Below, one piece after another: positions 6,649 to 17,802 of a DNA stretch of 64,000 bases. Location of the stretch: positions 1 through 64,000 of the forward strand of contig VGOW01000014.1 of the NCBI GenBank assembly GCA_016875735.1, read 5' to 3'. The notes below the pieces were generated by a model. That model was not told the DNA's origin and made no database searches. It saw nothing but the letters and a program-made list of their open reading frames with translations. Both the position numbers and the translations under genes were made by a program. Position 1 is the stretch's first letter, and each line of letters begins with the position of its first letter. Origin of the DNA: Chloroflexota bacterium. GTDB lineage: Bacteria; Chloroflexota; Anaerolineae; Anaerolineales; VGOW01.

Positions 6649-8007
6649 CTATGCCGGTAGGGCCACGTCAGAGTACAGTCTTTCCCGAATAGAAAGGAAT
6701 TGCCGCCGAAAACTGTCGTCGGTTTCGATGAGGTTGTCGATTTTATCGCAGCCGTGCATGATGGTCGTGTGGTCGCGCCCGCCGAGGAGTTGGCCGATTT
6801 CGGGGAGCGAGGCATCGGTTTCTTCTCGGACGATATACATTGCCATTTGGCGAGGCACAGTGATTTCTTTGCTCCGGTTCCGGCCAACGAGATCGTCCAC
6901 TTTGACAGCGTAAAAACTGGCGACGGTGTCGATGATGTGCGTTGGGCTGAGGGTGTGGCGGCGCGGCAGAAGGTCAGAGATGGCTTGGGCGGCGGTTTCG
7001 GGAGTGAGGGGCTGGCCGAGCACGTCGGTGTACGCGCACACGCGGTTGAGCGCGCCTTCGAGTTCGCGGATGTTGCTCTGCACGCGGCGGGCGATCACGT
7101 CGATCACTTCCGGCGGCACGGGGCGGCGCATGGGCTCGGCCTTCGAGCGCAAAATGGCGGCGCGGGTTTCGAAGTCTGGCGGCTGAACATCGGCGATGAG
7201 CCCCCATTCGAAACGGGAGCGAAGCCGCTCTTCGAGAGTCACGAGCGCTTTGGGCGAACGGTCGGACGAAATGACGATTTGTTTGCTCTGGCCGTGCAGG
7301 GCGTTGAAGGTGTGAAAGAATTCTTCCTGCGTGGCTTCTTTTCCGGCAATGAACTGGATGTCGTCAATGAGCAAAACATCGATCTCGCGATACTTGCCGC
7401 GGAAGGTTTCGGTGGTGTGCGAGCGGATGGAGTTGATGAGGTCGTTGGTGAACTGCTCGGCCGAGGCGTAGAGTACGGTGAGGCCTTTAGCCACACAGGC
7501 ATTGCCGACAGCTTGCAAAAGATGAGTCTTGCCCAACCCCACGCCGCCGTAGAGGAAGAGCGGGTTGTAGGCGCGAGCGGGATTCTCGGCGGCGGCCATT
7601 GCCGCGGCGTGCGCCAAGCGATTGCTGGGTCCGACAACGAAAGAATCGAAAGCGTACTTCGTGTTGAGTTTGAGTTGGGAGACGCCGGCCGAGGGCGTTT
7701 CGGCGCGTTCGGGCGATGGAACGGAGTCGGCGATTTCGGAGAGGGGTTTTGGATCCGCTGATTCGGCCCAAACGACAAAGCGCACTTCGGTCGCGCGGCC
7801 GGCGATGCCGGTGAGCGTGCGTTTGATAGTGGAGAGCAAACGATTCTCCAACCAATCTTTTGCGTAAGCATTTTCTACGCCGATGACAAATACGCCATCC
7901 TCGTAAGAAAGAAGAGATGTGTCACGCAACCACGTATCGAAGGTGGATTTGGTGAGTTGCAGTTGCAGTTCGCCCAACGCGGCTTGCCAAACTTGTTCGG
8001 GTCTCAT
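6649..8007 (-). CDS. dnaA: Chromosomal replication initiator DnaA
   Basis: 452 aa, full length. Domain I starts [15 protein letters not shown]. The AAA+ domain has Walker [10 protein letters not shown] and Walker [11 protein letters not shown]. Domain IV carries the DNA-binding signature [15 protein letters not shown]. It binds the boxes at 6541-6570 and 8518-8558 to open the origin. The ATG at 8007 has GGAG 8 nt upstream; a TTG 12 nt earlier is less likely. Upstream on the same strand is holB across a 600-bp gap, so dnaA is probably transcribed from inside that gap. Confidence 0.97.
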
Positions 8008-8610
8008 TAATTTCTCCAACAGCGGTTCTGCGCCAGCCTCGAGCGACGGGCAATGATTGTCGAATGCAGTTTTGGATTCGACCGCATATCCCCGTATATG
8101 AAAAGTTCAGTTCTCGATAGAGGCAAGTGGCCTTGAGAAGAAAAAAATTTCTCAACAGCGGTTGCATTCTAACAGGATCGACGGCGCGATTCAATAGTGG
8201 AGCGCTGAGAATCCCTAAAAAGATTGCATGTTTTAAGATAGAGTCACCTTAAACCGCAGGGCAACGCAACGAAGATCTTGCTCACACTTGGTGAGGTGAA
8301 TGAATTGACTTCTACCCCAATGCATATGCTTGCCGAAACGCGCCGTGCTATATCTTGGGCTATGCACGCAGAGCCGCGTCATGATCGACAGAATCTCAAC
8401 GCGAGCCTTAAGGAAAATAATGCGATGGTGAGCAGCTTAATGCTGTGATGGCGCGTGAGTGCGATGAAGAATCGCTTTTAATGTTTTTTGAGCGCCCACA
8501 GGCTGCGGGGATGTGGCTGTGGATAACACGGGTAATATCTGTGGATGGCTGTGGATGGCGAGGGGATAGCAAGTAGGCGCGGGAGTCGCTGCTTCAAAAA
8601 GCAACGGCCT
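8008..8610. other. oriC region upstream of dnaA
   Basis: A 603-bp stretch without a convincing gene. It has AT-rich pieces near 8140-8155 and 8215-8240 (ATCCCTAAAAAGATTGCATG) that could be unwinding elements, and a cluster of three DnaA boxes near the holB end. With the pair beyond dnaA this makes a bipartite origin flanking the gene. Confidence 0.75.
8518..8558. promoter_or_regulatory. Cluster of three DnaA boxes
   Basis: TGTGGATAA (8518-8526) is a perfect box on the minus strand. TGTGGATGG at 8540-8548 and at 8550-8558 are one-mismatch boxes spaced 10 nt apart. Confidence 0.8.
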
Positions 8611-9612
8611 CTATATGCGAGGCAGATCTAACAGCAACACTTCCAAAGCGAGGCGCGCATTGATGTTACGAGGAAGAAGAGAGATCGTTCGTTGAATAGA
8701 CTCCACCGTTTGCGCCGTTGCATCGAGCCCGATCTTTTCGGCGGCGGCTTGCACTGCGGCCCAATGATCGTTGTTGATCGGCGGGACTCCTCCGCCCGAT
8801 GCCGTGAGCATCACGTCGCGCCACCAACCCAGCCACAAGTCGAGCGTTTCGCGCATCGACTCGCGATCTCGCGCAAGCGCTTCGGCGTAGGCAAAACGCA
8901 CGGCGCGCGAACTGGATAGTAATTGCGCCAACTCCTCCAACCGCTGCTCTCGCCGCTCCAGCAAATGCCCGTCGTCGGACAGGGCATTCATAGCCCAGCC
9001 TACCCGTCCGCCCGAAAGACGAGCCAGCAGATCGCCGCGTTCGGTTGTCGCCCCTCGCCGTTGAACGAGCGTATCGCGAATGGCGGCGATGGGCAGTGGG
9101 CGCAGAAAGAATACTTCACAGCGCGAGCGGATGGTGGGCAAAAGAGATTCGGGATCGTTTGTGGTGAGCGCCAACAGCGCATAGTCGGGAGGCTCTTCGA
9201 GGGTTTTGAGAAAGGCGTTGGCCGCATTCTCATTGGCCGCCTCGAAGTTGGGGATGAAGCCGACTCTGTGCCGGCTTTCGACAGGCTTGCGAGTGATGGG
9301 AACGATCAACTCGTCACGGATGCGATCCACGAGAATCTTTTCCGTTTTGATTCGTTCGCCGCTCACGGCGGGTTTGACGATCAGAAGGTCGGGGTGATTC
9401 TGATGTTCGACGAGTTTGCACGGGCGGCATTCGCCGCAACCGGCGCGTTTCTCGCACAGCGCGGCTTTGATGAACGCCATCGCCAGAGTGCGCTTGCCGA
9501 TGCCCGCCGGCCCGGCGAGGAGATAGGCATGGTGAAGGCGATCATCGTGAATGTGCCGCTGAAGGGAAGCGACAGCCCATTCGTGCCCGACAATGCCCCA
9601 GTTGTCTTTCAT
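8611..9612 (-). CDS. holB: DNA polymerase III subunit delta'
   Basis: 333 aa clamp-loader subunit. The start MKDNWGIVGHEWAV leads into the AAA+ domain with Walker A GPAGIGKRT and the zinc module CEKRAGCGECRPC. Later come the sensor-region residues NAFLKTLEEPP and the arginine motif SRCEVF. The Walker A keeps GK, unlike E. coli delta'. It loads the sliding clamp together with HolA (25575-26588). It overlaps the upstream exonuclease-like gene by ATGA, so the two are probably one operon. Confidence 0.92.
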   Translation of the reverse strand: MKDNWGIVGHEWAVASLQRHIHDDRLHHAYLLAGPAGIGKRTLAMAFIKAALCEKRAGCGECRPCKLVEHQNHPDLLIVKPAVSGERIKTEKILVDRIRDELIVPITRKPVESRHRVGFIPNFEAANENAANAFLKTLEEPPDYALLALTTNDPESLLPTIRSRCEVFFLRPLPIAAIRDTLVQRRGATTERGDLLARLSGGRVGWAMNALSDDGHLLERREQRLEELAQLLSSSRAVRFAYAEALARDRESMRETLDLWLGWWRDVMLTASGGGVPPINNDHWAAVQAAAEKIGLDATAQTVESIQRTISLLPRNINARLALEVLLLDLPRI

Positions 9613-10847
9613 TCTTTCCTCGCCAATCTTTCCAATCGGTGTTGTATCTCGCTCCACGCTTCGTCCCGCTCCCAGCCTTTGCGCCAATGAGTGACACAAA
9701 TGAGCGCGCGGCTCGCCCACTCTTTGGCTTGGGCAATGCGGCCCGCCTCCCACTCGTAATACTTCGCCAACTCGATGCACGGAGTCGGATCGTCGTCGGC
9801 GAGATCGGCCCACTTTTGCCACAGCGGCGCGGCTTCGGCGCGTCGCCCGGCGTGTTTGAGGAAGGCGGCGTATCGAGAATACAGCGCGGGCTTGTGATCG
9901 GCGGGCAGGCTTCGCGCGCGCGCGAGCGCCGCTCGGTATGCCGCTTCGGCCTCGTCGGCCTCCCCGTTGTCGTCGTGCCACATCGCCAGCCGCAAGCAGT
10001 CGAGTCCCGTTCGAGTCTCGCTCACCGGGTCGGCGAACATTTCGAGGATGTGCGCGGCGAGTGTCACCATCGAAAGAATGTCTTCGGCGTTGTGATAGAT
10101 CACGCGCCGCATCTCGCGGGCGTCGCCAGTGCGCAAATAGTCAACGTACATTTGCGGGATGAGGCTGCCCGGCACATCGGCGTCGGTGCGATGGTGGTTG
10201 AGCACGGCGCTTTCGAGCGTGCCGAGCGAACAGTTTTCGTATCGCCCGCGCCACAGCCGCCGCGCGGCGGGCAGCAGATCGAGATTGGGGAATGAAGAAA
10301 GATCGAACGGACGGCGGGCGAGATCGAATCGCGTCTGCGCGATGGGGACATCGAATCCGCGCCCGTTGTAAGTGACCAACCCAACCCGATCGCGCAGGGA
10401 CTCCGCCACGCCGTTGAGCATGAACGCTTCCTCCGACGGATCGCGCATGAAGAATTGGCGCAGGGTGAACTGCCCCGACTCGAAAACGCCGACGCCGATG
10501 AGAAAGGCGAACGTGCCCGCGCCGCCCGCGAGGCCGGTCGTTTCGATGTCGAAAAAGGCGAGGCCGGAGAGATCGCTGGCGGCCAGAGAGTCGTGTTGGC
10601 CGAGCCGGGCGGCAAGGCGCGAGTCGCTGTTGAGCACATCGGCGAGGGGGCGCGAACCGTGCCGGTGATCCGGCGGGTACGAAGTTTCGGCGACAAAGTA
10701 TGCGCCGCCGTTCTCCGTGACCTCTCGCCCATCCACAAGCGACTCGATGTTGAATGCAGATCGGGCGGGGCGCGGCGCGTGTTTGAGTCCCTCGCGTCCC
10801 GGCTTCACGCCGAGTCGGCGCAAGCGTTCGTGCAGGTTGCTATTCAT
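9609..10847 (-). CDS. YprB-like RNase H-fold exonuclease with TPR tail
   Basis: 412 aa. A DEDD-type 3'-5' exonuclease domain is visible: FFDIETTG with acidic residues near position 100, TYNGRGFDVPI in the middle, and a late YHNAEDILSM giving the final Asp. The C-terminal ~130 residues have TPR-like helices (AEAAYRAALARARSLP). Such proteins are predicted nucleases with RNase H-like fold. Its position ahead of holB and dnaA suggests a DNA-maintenance role, which is inference. Confidence 0.8.
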   Translation of the reverse strand: MNSNLHERLRRLGVKPGREGLKHAPRPARSAFNIESLVDGREVTENGGAYFVAETSYPPDHRHGSRPLADVLNSDSRLAARLGQHDSLAASDLSGLAFFDIETTGLAGGAGTFAFLIGVGVFESGQFTLRQFFMRDPSEEAFMLNGVAESLRDRVGLVTYNGRGFDVPIAQTRFDLARRPFDLSSFPNLDLLPAARRLWRGRYENCSLGTLESAVLNHHRTDADVPGSLIPQMYVDYLRTGDAREMRRVIYHNAEDILSMVTLAAHILEMFADPVSETRTGLDCLRLAMWHDDNGEADEAEAAYRAALARARSLPADHKPALYSRYAAFLKHAGRRAEAAPLWQKWADLADDDPTPCIELAKYYEWEAGRIAQAKEWASRALICVTHWRKGWERDEAWSEIQHRLERLARKE

Positions 10848-10866
10848 GTCGGCAAGAGCGCCTGTG

Positions 10867-11430
10867 TTACGGGGGGCACTTGATCGGCGAGAGGTAATAC
10901 TTTTTGGTTACGCTCTGCCCGTCGCCGGAGGTGAGGCGGATGGTGTGGACGATCGTTCCGTCGCACAGGGTGAGCACTTTGAAAGGATTCTCGGGCTGCT
11001 CTGTGTCGTCGTGATAGATGCGATAGGGGGCGCGGCCCCCGCTGTAAACCACTTGCAGAGAGGCAATCGCTCCGCCATCGCGAGTGGGGTCCCGCTCAAC
11101 GCCGATGAGCAAAACGTTGGTGATGTCGAGCGGTTGAGGCGTGGGGCGAGGGATCAGCGCTCTCGTGGTGGGTGTGGGCGCTATCCCTGTGGGTGTATTG
11201 ACATTGGTGAGGATGGTTTGGGTTGGGCCACTGACGGCTTCCAGCGGAGTGGGGGTGGCCGCCACCGTGGTGGGCGCGGCGGCAGTATCGGTGCTGGCGG
11301 GGGCGGGGGCGGCGGTGGAGGTGATGGTGGGACGTGGTGTCCGGGTGGGAGTCGAATCAATCTCCGATGAAGTGCAGGCGGCCAGCAATGAGGCGGCGAC
11401 TGCGAGAGTCAGGAGTCGGCGAACGCGCAT
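10867..11430 (-). CDS. Secreted lipoprotein with Thr/Pro linker
   Basis: 187 aa. The signal peptide ends in lipobox LLAAC, so it is probably lipid-anchored outside the cell. A ~75-residue Thr/Pro/Ala linker follows, then a small domain with two cysteines (VLTLCDGTIVHT... SPIKCPP), perhaps a disulfide. No function is recognised. A TATAAT sits 6 nt before the ATG (11437-11442 on the minus strand), so its mRNA is probably leaderless. Confidence 0.75.
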   Translation of the reverse strand: MRVRRLLTLAVAASLLAACTSSEIDSTPTRTPRPTITSTAAPAPASTDTAAAPTTVAATPTPLEAVSGPTQTILTNVNTPTGIAPTPTTRALIPRPTPQPLDITNVLLIGVERDPTRDGGAIASLQVVYSGGRAPYRIYHDDTEQPENPFKVLTLCDGTIVHTIRLTSGDGQSVTKKYYLSPIKCPP

Positions 11431-11436
11431 GAGCGA

Positions 11437-11442
11437 ATTATA
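11437..11442 (-). promoter_or_regulatory. -10 box of leaderless promoter (lipoprotein)
   Basis: TATAAT on the minus strand, 6 nt before the start codon at 11430. Confidence 0.55.
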
Positions 11443-12610
11443 TATCGCCTCTGAGACTGGCGCTTGGCGAAATCAGGCTTTGGTGATAGCGGCGCTCTGT
11501 CAATGAGGCGATGGCGGCGAGGAGGTCGCCGATGGAGGCGAAGCGATCGGCGGGGTCGCGGGCAAGAATGCAAAGGAGGAATCTTTCAATCTCGTCGGGG
11601 ATGCCGGGGAGGAAGACGCGCGGCGAAAGGGGAGCGCCCTGCAATTGCTGGGCAATGATCAGTTCTTCCAGTTCGGCGGTGAATGGGTGCGTGCCGATGA
11701 TGGCTTCGTAGAGGAGCACGCCGAGCGAAAATTGATCGGAGCGAGGTGTGGGCGGCTCGCCGCGCAGTTGTTCGGGGGAGCGATAGGCCGACGGCAGGGC
11801 ATTGCCCGGTGGGAAGAGCGGCGCACGGGCGACTCGAGGGAGATCGTCGTTGAAGACGAAGCACTCCGGGCGCAGCTCGCCGTGAACGACTCCGCGCTGA
11901 TGAGCATGTTCGATGGCCGCGGCCATTTCACTCATCCAGCGCAAGCCCTCTTCGACGGAGACCCGGCCTCCGTGCGTTCCCAGCCATGCGCCCCACGTTT
12001 GTCCCGATGGCCGTTCGCCCACAAAGGCGATGAGATCGCCGTCGTCGATCACTTCGACGCCGGGCACAATTCGCGGGTGCGTGAGTTCGCACCAGGCTTT
12101 GGCCGATTTGGCGAACGCCAGCCGCTGTTGAGCGTTGGCCTCATTGCTGAGAACCTGCACCAATAGCGGGGCCGGGTTGTCGTGCCTCGCGGCGGCGTAG
12201 ATCGCGCCCAAATCGTTGGCGGTGATGGTGTTGCCCAAGCGAAATTTGGCGAGAGTCTTTTCGCGCAGTTGAAGGTGCGCCGAGCCGGCCATTGCGGCGA
12301 TGGCATGTGGCCGGCTGAGATAGATCGGCCCCACCTCGCGCGCGCCCGACTGTTCGAGACTGCGGCGAACGAAGGCGGCGGGGGCGACATAGGCTAATTG
12401 CGAATAGGGCACGGCGCGCGCGGCGTTGATGATTGCTTTGACGCCGATGGGATCGACAATAGCCAGCAGGGTGAGATCGAGAATGGCGCGGCGGGCGGGG
12501 GCCGCCTCGAGGAATGCGGTGAGCCGCGCCTGCGCCTCGTCGGCGGTCTCGGCGGCGAGTTTTCCGGCGAACACCATTTGCCGCACTTCGGCCTCGCGGT
12601 CTTCGATCAC
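11438..12610 (-). CDS. STAS-like/pseudokinase fusion protein
   Basis: 390 aa. Residues ~8-115 resemble a STAS (anti-sigma-factor antagonist) fold. Residues ~120-375 align with bacterial Ser/Thr kinases: a lobe ending in LLVQVL, then HGELRPE (243-249), a YRSPEQLRG activation-segment end and DQFSLGVLLYEAIIGTHPF. The VAIK lysine is Gln152, HRD is HGE, and no DFG is present, so it should be catalytically dead. It starts at a GTG overlapping the MBL stop as GTGA (12607-12610), which fixes the start and couples the pair. The role is probably a signalling scaffold (inference). Confidence 0.72.
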   Translation of the reverse strand: MIEDREAEVRQMVFAGKLAAETADEAQARLTAFLEAAPARRAILDLTLLAIVDPIGVKAIINAARAVPYSQLAYVAPAAFVRRSLEQSGAREVGPIYLSRPHAIAAMAGSAHLQLREKTLAKFRLGNTITANDLGAIYAAARHDNPAPLLVQVLSNEANAQQRLAFAKSAKAWCELTHPRIVPGVEVIDDGDLIAFVGERPSGQTWGAWLGTHGGRVSVEEGLRWMSEMAAAIEHAHQRGVVHGELRPECFVFNDDLPRVARAPLFPPGNALPSAYRSPEQLRGEPPTPRSDQFSLGVLLYEAIIGTHPFTAELEELIIAQQLQGAPLSPRVFLPGIPDEIERFLLCILARDPADRFASIGDLLAAIASLTERRYHQSLISPSASLRGDI

Positions 12611-13572
12611 TTCGAGCCGAGAAAGAGTTCGAGCCCCTCGCGCCCCACGATCACTTCGATGGCGCCGGGGGTGGGCGTGAGTTGAGCATAGCGGCGGGCC
12701 GATTCGGCCACGTTGTAGATCTGAACGTCGGTGTCGGCGGCATCGTAATGAGTGGTGATGAGTTTCTTCGCGTGGGCCCGTTCGGCGAGCTCCACTCCGA
12801 TCATGGCCGACGAATGTCCCCAATCGGCTTTGGAGAGGAGCACGTCGCGCAGAGAGTATTGACAGTCGAAGGCGAGCGCGTCGGCGTTGCGGAAGAAATC
12901 CACGAAGCGGCGCAGGCCGTCGTCGTCGAGCGTTTTGTATTCGCCGTCGGAGGCGAATACGAACACGCTCTCCCCGTCGTCGAATCGATAGGCATACGCC
13001 GTGCCAGGATGATAGAGGGCGAGGCTGGTCACCGCACATCGCCCGATCTGCACCATCTCTCCCTCCAACAATTTCACGAACGAGATGTCGGCGGCCAATT
13101 GCGATACGCGGATGGGAAAGAAGACCGGGGCGACTTGTTGATGCTCGATGTATTCGCGCGGGTTGTGGTTGACGGCGTAAAAGATGAGTTTGTTGCCGGG
13201 CACGTAGGCAGGGGCAAAGAAAGGCAACCCCTGAAGATGATCCCAGTGAGCATGGGTGAGGAAGATGTGCGCCACCCCCTGCCCTCGCCCGAAATCGCCA
13301 GCCATGAGCGAGTAGCCCAACTGGCGAATGCCGGTGCCGCAGTCGATGATGATGGTATCGTCGCCGCTGGCGATCTCGGCGCAAGTGGTGTTGCCGCCCA
13401 CCACGCCCTGCACCGCCGGAGGCAGCGAGGCAATGAAGGCGCGCACCTCTGCCGGGTCGCTTGTGTTCAATCCTTTGGCGGCAGTGAGGGCGTGAAAAAG
13501 CTTTTCTTGCAACTGCTCGGTCGAGAGCGGGGTGGGGATCGAACCACGCACCCCCCAGAATTTCACTCTCAC
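12607..13572 (-). CDS. MBL-fold metallo-hydrolase (HAHWDH type)
   Basis: 321 aa. It begins with the typical VKFWGVRGSIP and carries the complete metal motif THAHWDH, plus later His/Asp ligands in FASDGEY and ITTHYDA. This subfamily includes PhnP-like and cyclic-nucleotide phosphodiesterase-like enzymes; the substrate is unknown. The start is GTG with GAGGAG 12 nt upstream. Coupling to the STAS/pseudokinase gene suggests a signalling pair in which the hydrolase may cleave a nucleotide or phospho-ligand (inference). Confidence 0.85.
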   Translation of the reverse strand: MRVKFWGVRGSIPTPLSTEQLQEKLFHALTAAKGLNTSDPAEVRAFIASLPPAVQGVVGGNTTCAEIASGDDTIIIDCGTGIRQLGYSLMAGDFGRGQGVAHIFLTHAHWDHLQGLPFFAPAYVPGNKLIFYAVNHNPREYIEHQQVAPVFFPIRVSQLAADISFVKLLEGEMVQIGRCAVTSLALYHPGTAYAYRFDDGESVFVFASDGEYKTLDDDGLRRFVDFFRNADALAFDCQYSLRDVLLSKADWGHSSAMIGVELAERAHAKKLITTHYDAADTDVQIYNVAESARRYAQLTPTPGAIEVIVGREGLELFLGSK

Positions 13573-13671
13573 AGTTGATCGAATCTCCTCGAATGAGGGC
13601 GCAGGCTTCGGCTTGCGCCAGTCTCACCGAGTGTAGCACGAAGCCCAAAACGGGGGGAGAGGCAGAGGGTG

Positions 13672-17300: not shown

Positions 17301-17351
17301 TCCCTCCCCTGTTCGGTGTTCTTCCGAACGGGGGAGGGCCGGGGTGGGGGC
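17301..17351. repeat. Palindromic repeat flanking the DUF559 gene (left copy)
   Basis: CCCTCCCCTGTTCGG pairs with CCGAACGGGGGAGGG around loop TGTTCTT, then GCCGGGGTGGGGGC follows. The right half matches the copy at 17738; the outer left arm is missing. Confidence 0.8.
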
Positions 17352-17369: not shown

Positions 17370-17735
17370 ATGCCTCCTCACCCCCGCTGGCGAGCCTCCA
17401 AAGAAATGCAAGATCGCGCGCGGCAATTGCGCCGCGAAATGACTCCGGCGGAGAAAAAACTGTGGGCGCGGCTCCGGTATAACCAAGTGGACGGGTTTCA
17501 GTTTCGCCGCCAGCACGCTGTCGGGCGCTTCATCCTCGACTTCTTCTGCGCCAAAGCAAAGTTGGCCATCGAAGTGGACGGCGACACACACGCCGCGCAA
17601 ACAGAGTATGATGAGGAGCGCACGGCGTGGCTGAATGCGCAGAAGCAATACCGCGTCATCCGATTCGCAAACCGTGATGTGCTTCGGAATCTCGATGTGG
17701 TGGTGGAGAAGATCAGAGAAGAGTTGAAGAAGTGA
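17370..17735 (+). CDS. DUF559 (VSR-like) endonuclease-domain protein
   Basis: 121 aa, the whole DUF559 domain: RRQHAVGRFILDFFCAKAKLAIEVDGDTHA contains the D-ExD core of the PD-(D/E)xK-type VSR-like nuclease fold. The N-terminus is basic (RARQLRREMTPAEKKLWARLR). Its biological role is unknown. It is bracketed by two copies of one palindrome (17301-17351 and 17738-17802), which suggests it moves or spreads with that repeat. Confidence 0.85.
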   Translation: MPPHPRWRASKEMQDRARQLRREMTPAEKKLWARLRYNQVDGFQFRRQHAVGRFILDFFCAKAKLAIEVDGDTHAAQTEYDEERTAWLNAQKQYRVIRFANRDVLRNLDVVVEKIREELKK

Positions 17736-17737
17736 AG

Positions 17738-17802
17738 GCCCCCACCCCGGCCCTCCCCCGTTCGGTGTTCTTCCGAACGGGGGAGGGGCCGGGGGTGGGG
17801 GC
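17738..17802. repeat. Palindromic repeat flanking the DUF559 gene (right copy)
   Basis: A 65-nt near-perfect palindrome: CCCACCCCGGCCCTCCCCC and GTTCGG on the left, loop TGTTCTT, then CCGAAC and GGGGGAGGGGCC on the right. It begins 3 nt after the DUF559 stop. Confidence 0.85.

Follow-up and report, generated by a model that had tools for sequence, protein, structure and literature searches.

Two overlapping reading frames in a Chloroflexota bacterium are the halves of an ancestral MBL hydrolase-STAS-pseudokinase gene

What kind of system is encoded by two overlapping reading frames, one for an MBL-fold hydrolase and the other for a STAS-like domain joined to a protein-kinase fold that lacks its catalytic residues? 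The window, by which we mean the whole stretch of 64,000 nucleotides that was analysed (positions 1 to 64,000 of contig VGOW01000014.1, from a Chloroflexota bacterium), carries both frames on its minus strand. The MBL-fold reading frame (P0002) lies at 12607-13572, begins with GTG and encodes 321 amino acids. The second (P0001) lies at 11438-12610 and encodes 390 amino acids. Its GTG start codon (12608-12610) overlaps the MBL stop, which gives the sequence GTGA at 12607-12610, and its own stop is at 11438. A sequence-only reading had located both frames correctly. It took the GTGA for the coupling of two genes in an operon and guessed that they might form an unusual partner-switching system.

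Two halves of one gene

Each of the two reading frames is one half of an ancestral Chloroflexota gene that encoded an MBL hydrolase, a STAS domain and a pseudokinase. In eight relatives the three parts form one uninterrupted reading frame of approximately 694-722 amino acids. Four of these relatives belong to the same genus (G001-G004), three to another family of the order (G026, G050, G069) and one to the wider class (G102). Wherever a relative has a match that covers both parts, they are fused, and P0002 shares 76-78% identity with the corresponding N-terminal stretch of the proteins from G001-G004. Because the relatives carry one continuous gene, the split in the window is secondary.

The cause of the split can be read from a DNA alignment (A5). 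Exactly 13 nucleotides that are present in seven fused relatives are missing from the window at the junction (12605-12620). Their absence shifts the frame and thereby creates the stop codon together with the overlapping GTG. Hence the overlap exists, but it marks a frame-shifted fusion and not the coupling of an operon. The physical link between MBL, STAS and kinase is nevertheless conserved when neighbourhoods are compared; the relatives keep it as a fusion.

Two other ways of reading the junction were rejected. A 736-aa reading frame (11438-13648) was not counted as a protein: it arises because the STAS-kinase frame stays open across the MBL gene, which is read in a different frame. A programmed frameshift that restores the fusion would need a slippery site, and the junction, GGC TCG AAG TGA, is without the usual slippery heptamer.

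The split gene is possibly decaying. The full version of this explanation holds that the deletion ended the production of the STAS-pseudokinase and that the cell now makes and uses the MBL alone, which we consider rather unlikely. The deletion is unique to the window among the compared relatives, and the GTG is not preceded by an obvious ribosome-binding site. Both parts of the intact gene evolve under purifying selection, with a dN/dS between G001 and G004 of 0.017 for the MBL and 0.064 for the STAS-pseudokinase. For the window branch we used codon-position counts instead of dN/dS. In the STAS-pseudokinase half, 27 of 57 window-specific changes fall on the second codon position, compared to 28 of 93 in two sister branches (positions 2 and 3 counted, Fisher p = 0.04). 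The MBL half has no such excess. The excess is a weak sign of relaxed constraint in the downstream half and fits decay. However, the same half has kept 390 codons without stops or further shifts, and its GTG is placed exactly at the new stop. Furthermore, the glutamate of its HGE motif (see below) is also found in the intact gene of G002.

Alternatively, the split could be an assembly or sequencing error, the true gene being fused. The genome is a draft of 150 contigs, and the consistent fusion among the relatives is what such an error would predict. Yet a clean loss of 13 nucleotides is atypical of short-read errors, and the codons to either side of the junction are well aligned. We therefore regard an error as improbable.

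The gene is a few kb from dnaA, and the genes beside it (6649-11430 of the window) encode a probable lipoprotein, a YprB-like protein and DnaA. G002 and G003 share the order of gene, lipoprotein and YprB-like protein, and in G003 dnaA comes next. In the other family and in G102, no match to any of these flanking genes was seen next to the fusion, and we therefore do not infer a functional operon partner. Elsewhere in the window a 49-nt repeat occurs twice (17302-17350 and 17738-17799). The copies are 90% identical and 449 nt apart, and the second has an inverted arm. They flank a 121-aa reading frame (17370-17735, plus strand), which we take to be DUF559/Vsr-like, and together they may form a small mobile or repeated unit.

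A STAS domain without its serine and a kinase without catalytic residues

The N-terminal domain of P0001 (residues 1-112, 12275-12610) had been described as STAS-like, and this description holds. Its match to the Pfam STAS family (PF01740; E = 1.7e-4) scores 21.8 bits, 0.8 below the cut-off of 22.6, and in a six-frame search of the genome the same domain reaches 25.1 bits, over the cut-off. It also aligns to SpoIIAA (1th8_B, E = 0.006). An AlphaFold2 model of P0001 built with eight sequences (mean pLDDT 82) contains a STAS-like alpha/beta domain, with a pLDDT of about 90 over most of its length, followed by a kinase fold. Structure searches were filled by kinases; the assignment of the STAS and MBL folds rests on sequence profiles and secondary structure.

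In SpoIIAA the STAS domain is phosphorylated on Ser58. The window protein has a proline at this position (Pro54, 12449-12451). None of the 14 Chloroflexota fusions has a serine at the acceptor position of the DSSG loop: we find Pro, Ala, Gly, Ile, Met and Val, and Thr in G734. The phosphoserine is kept in all 15 free STAS proteins that are encoded beside related MBLs, and the one MBL-STAS fusion from the Desulfobacterota class (L141) has kept it as well. Judged by its residues, P0001 cannot carry out phosphoserine partner switching because the acceptor serine is lost.

Could the STAS domain still be active in a live switch with proteins encoded elsewhere in the genome? The window species has a classical HATPase_c_2 and STAS (RsbW-RsbV) pair (G000:C28:9939-10669), in which the HATPase_c_2 match beside the STAS is strong, and strong SpoIIE matches on contigs C85 and C20. 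But no HATPase or SpoIIE genes adjoin the locus, and the acceptor serine is missing from every Chloroflexota fusion. Without a serine the fused STAS domain is not a likely client of these switch parts, and we give a live switch very little weight.

The remainder of P0001 is a kinase fold (residues 119-376, 11483-12256). It matches the Pfam protein kinase family (PF00069, E = 7.1e-17), and the model superposes on the kinase PknA (4ow8) with a Z of 29.2 and an rmsd of 2.8 over 258 aligned residues (VIA-align). The residues that define an active Hanks-type Ser/Thr kinase are replaced, just as the sequence-only reading had described: Gln152 (12155-12157) stands in place of the beta3 lysine of VAIK, His243-Gly-Glu245 (243-245, 11876-11884) in place of HRD, and R-A-P-L-F-P, beginning with Arg262 (11810-11827), in place of the DFG region. 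The domain is thus a pseudokinase.

These replacements can be followed through eight close members, which are the window protein, G001-G004, G026, G050 and G069. Both the beta3 lysine and DFG are lost in all eight. At the lysine position there is a glutamine in all five members of family f1 and an arginine in all three of family f10. The HG of the second motif is invariant, and its third residue is Glu in the window and G002 and Asp in the other six. The motif that replaces DFG can be written as R-x-P/L-L-F/Y-P: Arg262, Leu265 and Pro267 are invariant, position 264 is Pro in seven members and Leu in G003, and positions 263 and 266 vary. The alphaC glutamate is not kept either. The structural motifs of the C-lobe are kept, namely PEQLRG (with Ser for Pro in G002), DxxxLG and a late Arg, and the best conserved parts of the pseudokinase are the activation segment and alphaF-alphaG.

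More distant fusions have retained more. L037 still has VAIK and DFG, with HGN as the second motif. In G734 the three motifs read Arg, HGN and GFG, and in G102 the lysine is retained together with HRY and NFG. By these motifs they are intermediates in motif loss. Since the catalytic residues are replaced in all eight close members and intermediates occur in distant fusions, the loss is common to the family and not a local accident. The kinase-like domain is most unlikely to be more than a plain scaffold with some other enzymatic activity, as in SelO and SidJ (precedents named in PMC12599244): a conserved motif stands in the place of DFG and six of the eight members retain the HRD aspartate, but the beta3 lysine, the alphaC glutamate and the DFG aspartate are replaced, and in the window the HRD aspartate as well.

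Other bacterial pseudokinase families, ActPs1-3, GLW, CP1, DLHK and DYD, share the Hanks-type fold and degraded VAIK, HRD and DFG motifs (PMC12599244). They belong to a different phylum, whereas the group described here combines Gln or Arg, HGD or HGE and R-x-P/L-L-F/Y-P and is joined to MBL-STAS. Compared by description, it has neither the GLW in place of HRD nor the Leu or Trp in place of the beta3 lysine that mark the GLW family. Likewise by description, ActPs2 proteins have Arg for the beta3 lysine, Asn for the HRD aspartate and a long insert in the activation loop, and the window protein has Gln, Glu and a short loop. The CP1 family, defined by its own residue patterns in a classification of 42 families, is diverse, and the window protein could conceivably belong to it. 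The review of these families does not mention STAS, lactamase or Chloroflexi (PMC12599244).

The hydrolase and its neighbours in other lineages

P0002 matches Lactamase_B_2 (Pfam, E = 1.1e-14). Its metal motif HAHWDH (His107, His109, Asp111, His112) lies at 13237-13254, a position obtained by an ungapped match to L010, and the further ligand positions His188, Asp209 and His275 are kept. All metal-ligand positions are invariant in one alignment (A2) and conserved to at least 90% in another (A4). P0002 thus has the HxHxDH and the downstream His, Asp and His of an MBL superfamily hydrolase, and we infer that it is a working hydrolase, probably a phosphodiesterase by superfamily. It is the only likely enzyme of the ancestral protein. 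The genome of the window species has no paralogue of this MBL, and viral contigs scanned with it yielded no relatives.

Lactamase_B_2, HxHxDH and the downstream ligands are shared with known MBL phosphodiesterases (RNase Z, YhfI-type 6kns, Rv1339-type). In contrast to these, the window MBL has an insert of approximately 45 amino acids between GSIPTP and GGNT. It also falls far below the cut-offs of the established families, with at best 47.2 bits against a curated NCBIfam cut-off of 252 for RNase Z and 32 bits against 400 for the cyclic-nucleotide-degrading phosphodiesterase (NF041851).

A scan of GTDB genomes found free-standing relatives of about 315 amino acids in Spirochaetota, Neomarinimicrobiota, Nitrospinota, Desulfobacterota and others. 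Within Chloroflexota, L038, L039 and L044 are MBL-STAS fusions without the kinase. With them the forms make up a graded series, from MBL through MBL-STAS to MBL-STAS-kinase. Longer versions of the fusion with AAA/TPR regions occur in G734 and L037. L033, the chain from G734, joins MBL, STAS and pseudokinase with apparent AAA-ATPase and TPR regions (the last two recognised by eye) in 1576 amino acids. At L038 a histidine kinase with a cNMP_binding-HisKA-HATPase arrangement (L038:3744-4907) lies directly upstream of the MBL-STAS fusion, a single case that hints at cyclic nucleotides.

Of 80 neighbours of free MBLs that were scanned, 14 are HDOD proteins, which rank among the commonest, and 5 are STAS proteins. 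HDOD genes lie upstream of the MBL at L082, L086, L090, L099, L101, L102, L107, L110-L113 and others. The HDOD-linked MBLs form a tree branch apart from the STAS-linked ones, with the carrier loci judged partly by size of the reading frame and similarity.

Several free MBLs lie among partner-switch genes. In two Desulfobacterales loci (L059 and L061) the gene order is MBL-STAS-HATPase_c_2-HAMP-SpoIIE and in two Armatimonadota loci (L040 and L041) it is HATPase_c_2-STAS-MBL. A partner-switch module, defined as HATPase_c_2 and PP2C/SpoIIE beside STAS, is therefore found in whole or in part at these four loci. L063 has the order STAS-MBL-CHASE2-SpoIIE, with the SpoIIE part spread over two frames, and further free MBLs near STAS, HATPase_c_2 or SpoIIE genes are found at L125-L127, L137, L142 and L148.

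The association is frequent in a sample from the class of L059. Twelve of the 28 MBL loci in this sample have a STAS in the locus (11 as neighbours, 1 fused in L141), compared to 0.14 expected from a genome density of 1.26 STAS per Mb, a density taken from genomes picked among the positives. The 28 loci are not independent and two of the 12 positives were already known, so a Poisson value for this comparison is not a probability. In an MBL tree built by a quick method the partner-switch label requires at least 6 changes, and the Armatimonadota pair and all Chloroflexota fusions fall into one group of 24 rows (SH-aLRT 98).

The guess of a partner-switching system thus suits the wider family, where free MBLs lie beside STAS, HATPase_c_2 and SpoIIE genes. 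It does not suit the window protein as a working phospho-switch, since this protein has Pro54 and a dead kinase, and no RsbW or RsbU homologue lies beside the window locus.

A possible history of the fused protein

We propose a history for the locus that we hold to be somewhat better than an even bet: an MBL hydrolase came from a partner-switching module, the STAS domain was fused to it and frozen, a dead kinase joined them as a module for docking or regulation, and in the window the gene was split. The STAS part would derive from a free RsbV/SpoIIAA-type protein, which elsewhere is encoded beside the MBL together with an RsbW-like HATPase kinase and a SpoIIE phosphatase. In such free-standing clusters gene adjacency suggests that phosphorylation of the STAS protein switches the MBL, either via direct STAS-MBL binding or via HATPase-MBL binding. 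In Chloroflexota the STAS would have been fused to the MBL and would have lost its phosphoserine, ending switching by phosphorylation. Afterwards a Hanks-type kinase domain would have been added and would have lost catalysis, leaving a scaffold. The conservation of its C-lobe from the activation segment to alphaG suggests that this scaffold probably serves to dock a partner or to regulate the MBL. Finally, a 13-nt deletion would have split the gene in the window species, where translation of the second half may start by termination-reinitiation at the GTG that overlaps the new stop.

A broader interpretation, which we put forward tentatively and at somewhat less than even confidence, is that this MBL family is a recurrent, unrecognised output enzyme of Rsb-type switches in several phyla. 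Chloroflexota would have collapsed the switch into one polypeptide, discarded the phospho-site and put a pseudokinase in control.

The known switches RsbU/RsbV/RsbW and SpoIIE/SpoIIAA/SpoIIAB resemble these proteins in their SpoIIAA-type STAS, and the free MBLs of other lineages stand in STAS-HATPase-SpoIIE clusters. They differ from the window protein, whose STAS has no phosphoserine, which carries a dead Hanks-type kinase domain, and whose candidate output is an MBL hydrolase instead of a sigma factor. There is a precedent for a partner-switch antagonist that acts on a signalling enzyme: in the HsbR-HsbA-HsbD system of Pseudomonas aeruginosa the anti-sigma antagonist binds a diguanylate cyclase (PMC6482189). 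That antagonist undergoes phosphorylation, whereas here the enzyme is an MBL hydrolase and the STAS fused to it cannot be phosphorylated.

Within the openly accessible literature that our search covered, we found no paper linking partner switching or a STAS/anti-sigma antagonist to this type of MBL. Partner switches are mostly described in the control of sigma factors, with a few enzymes among their known outputs. With a hydrolase that recurs next to STAS, HATPase and SpoIIE genes in several lineages, the outputs of these switches would come to include an additional class of enzyme. In the Chloroflexota proteins one can see steps on a possible route by which such a switch was fused and frozen and acquired a pseudokinase. 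They also define a bacterial pseudokinase group with a conserved motif of its own, in a field in which few such groups have an assigned role.
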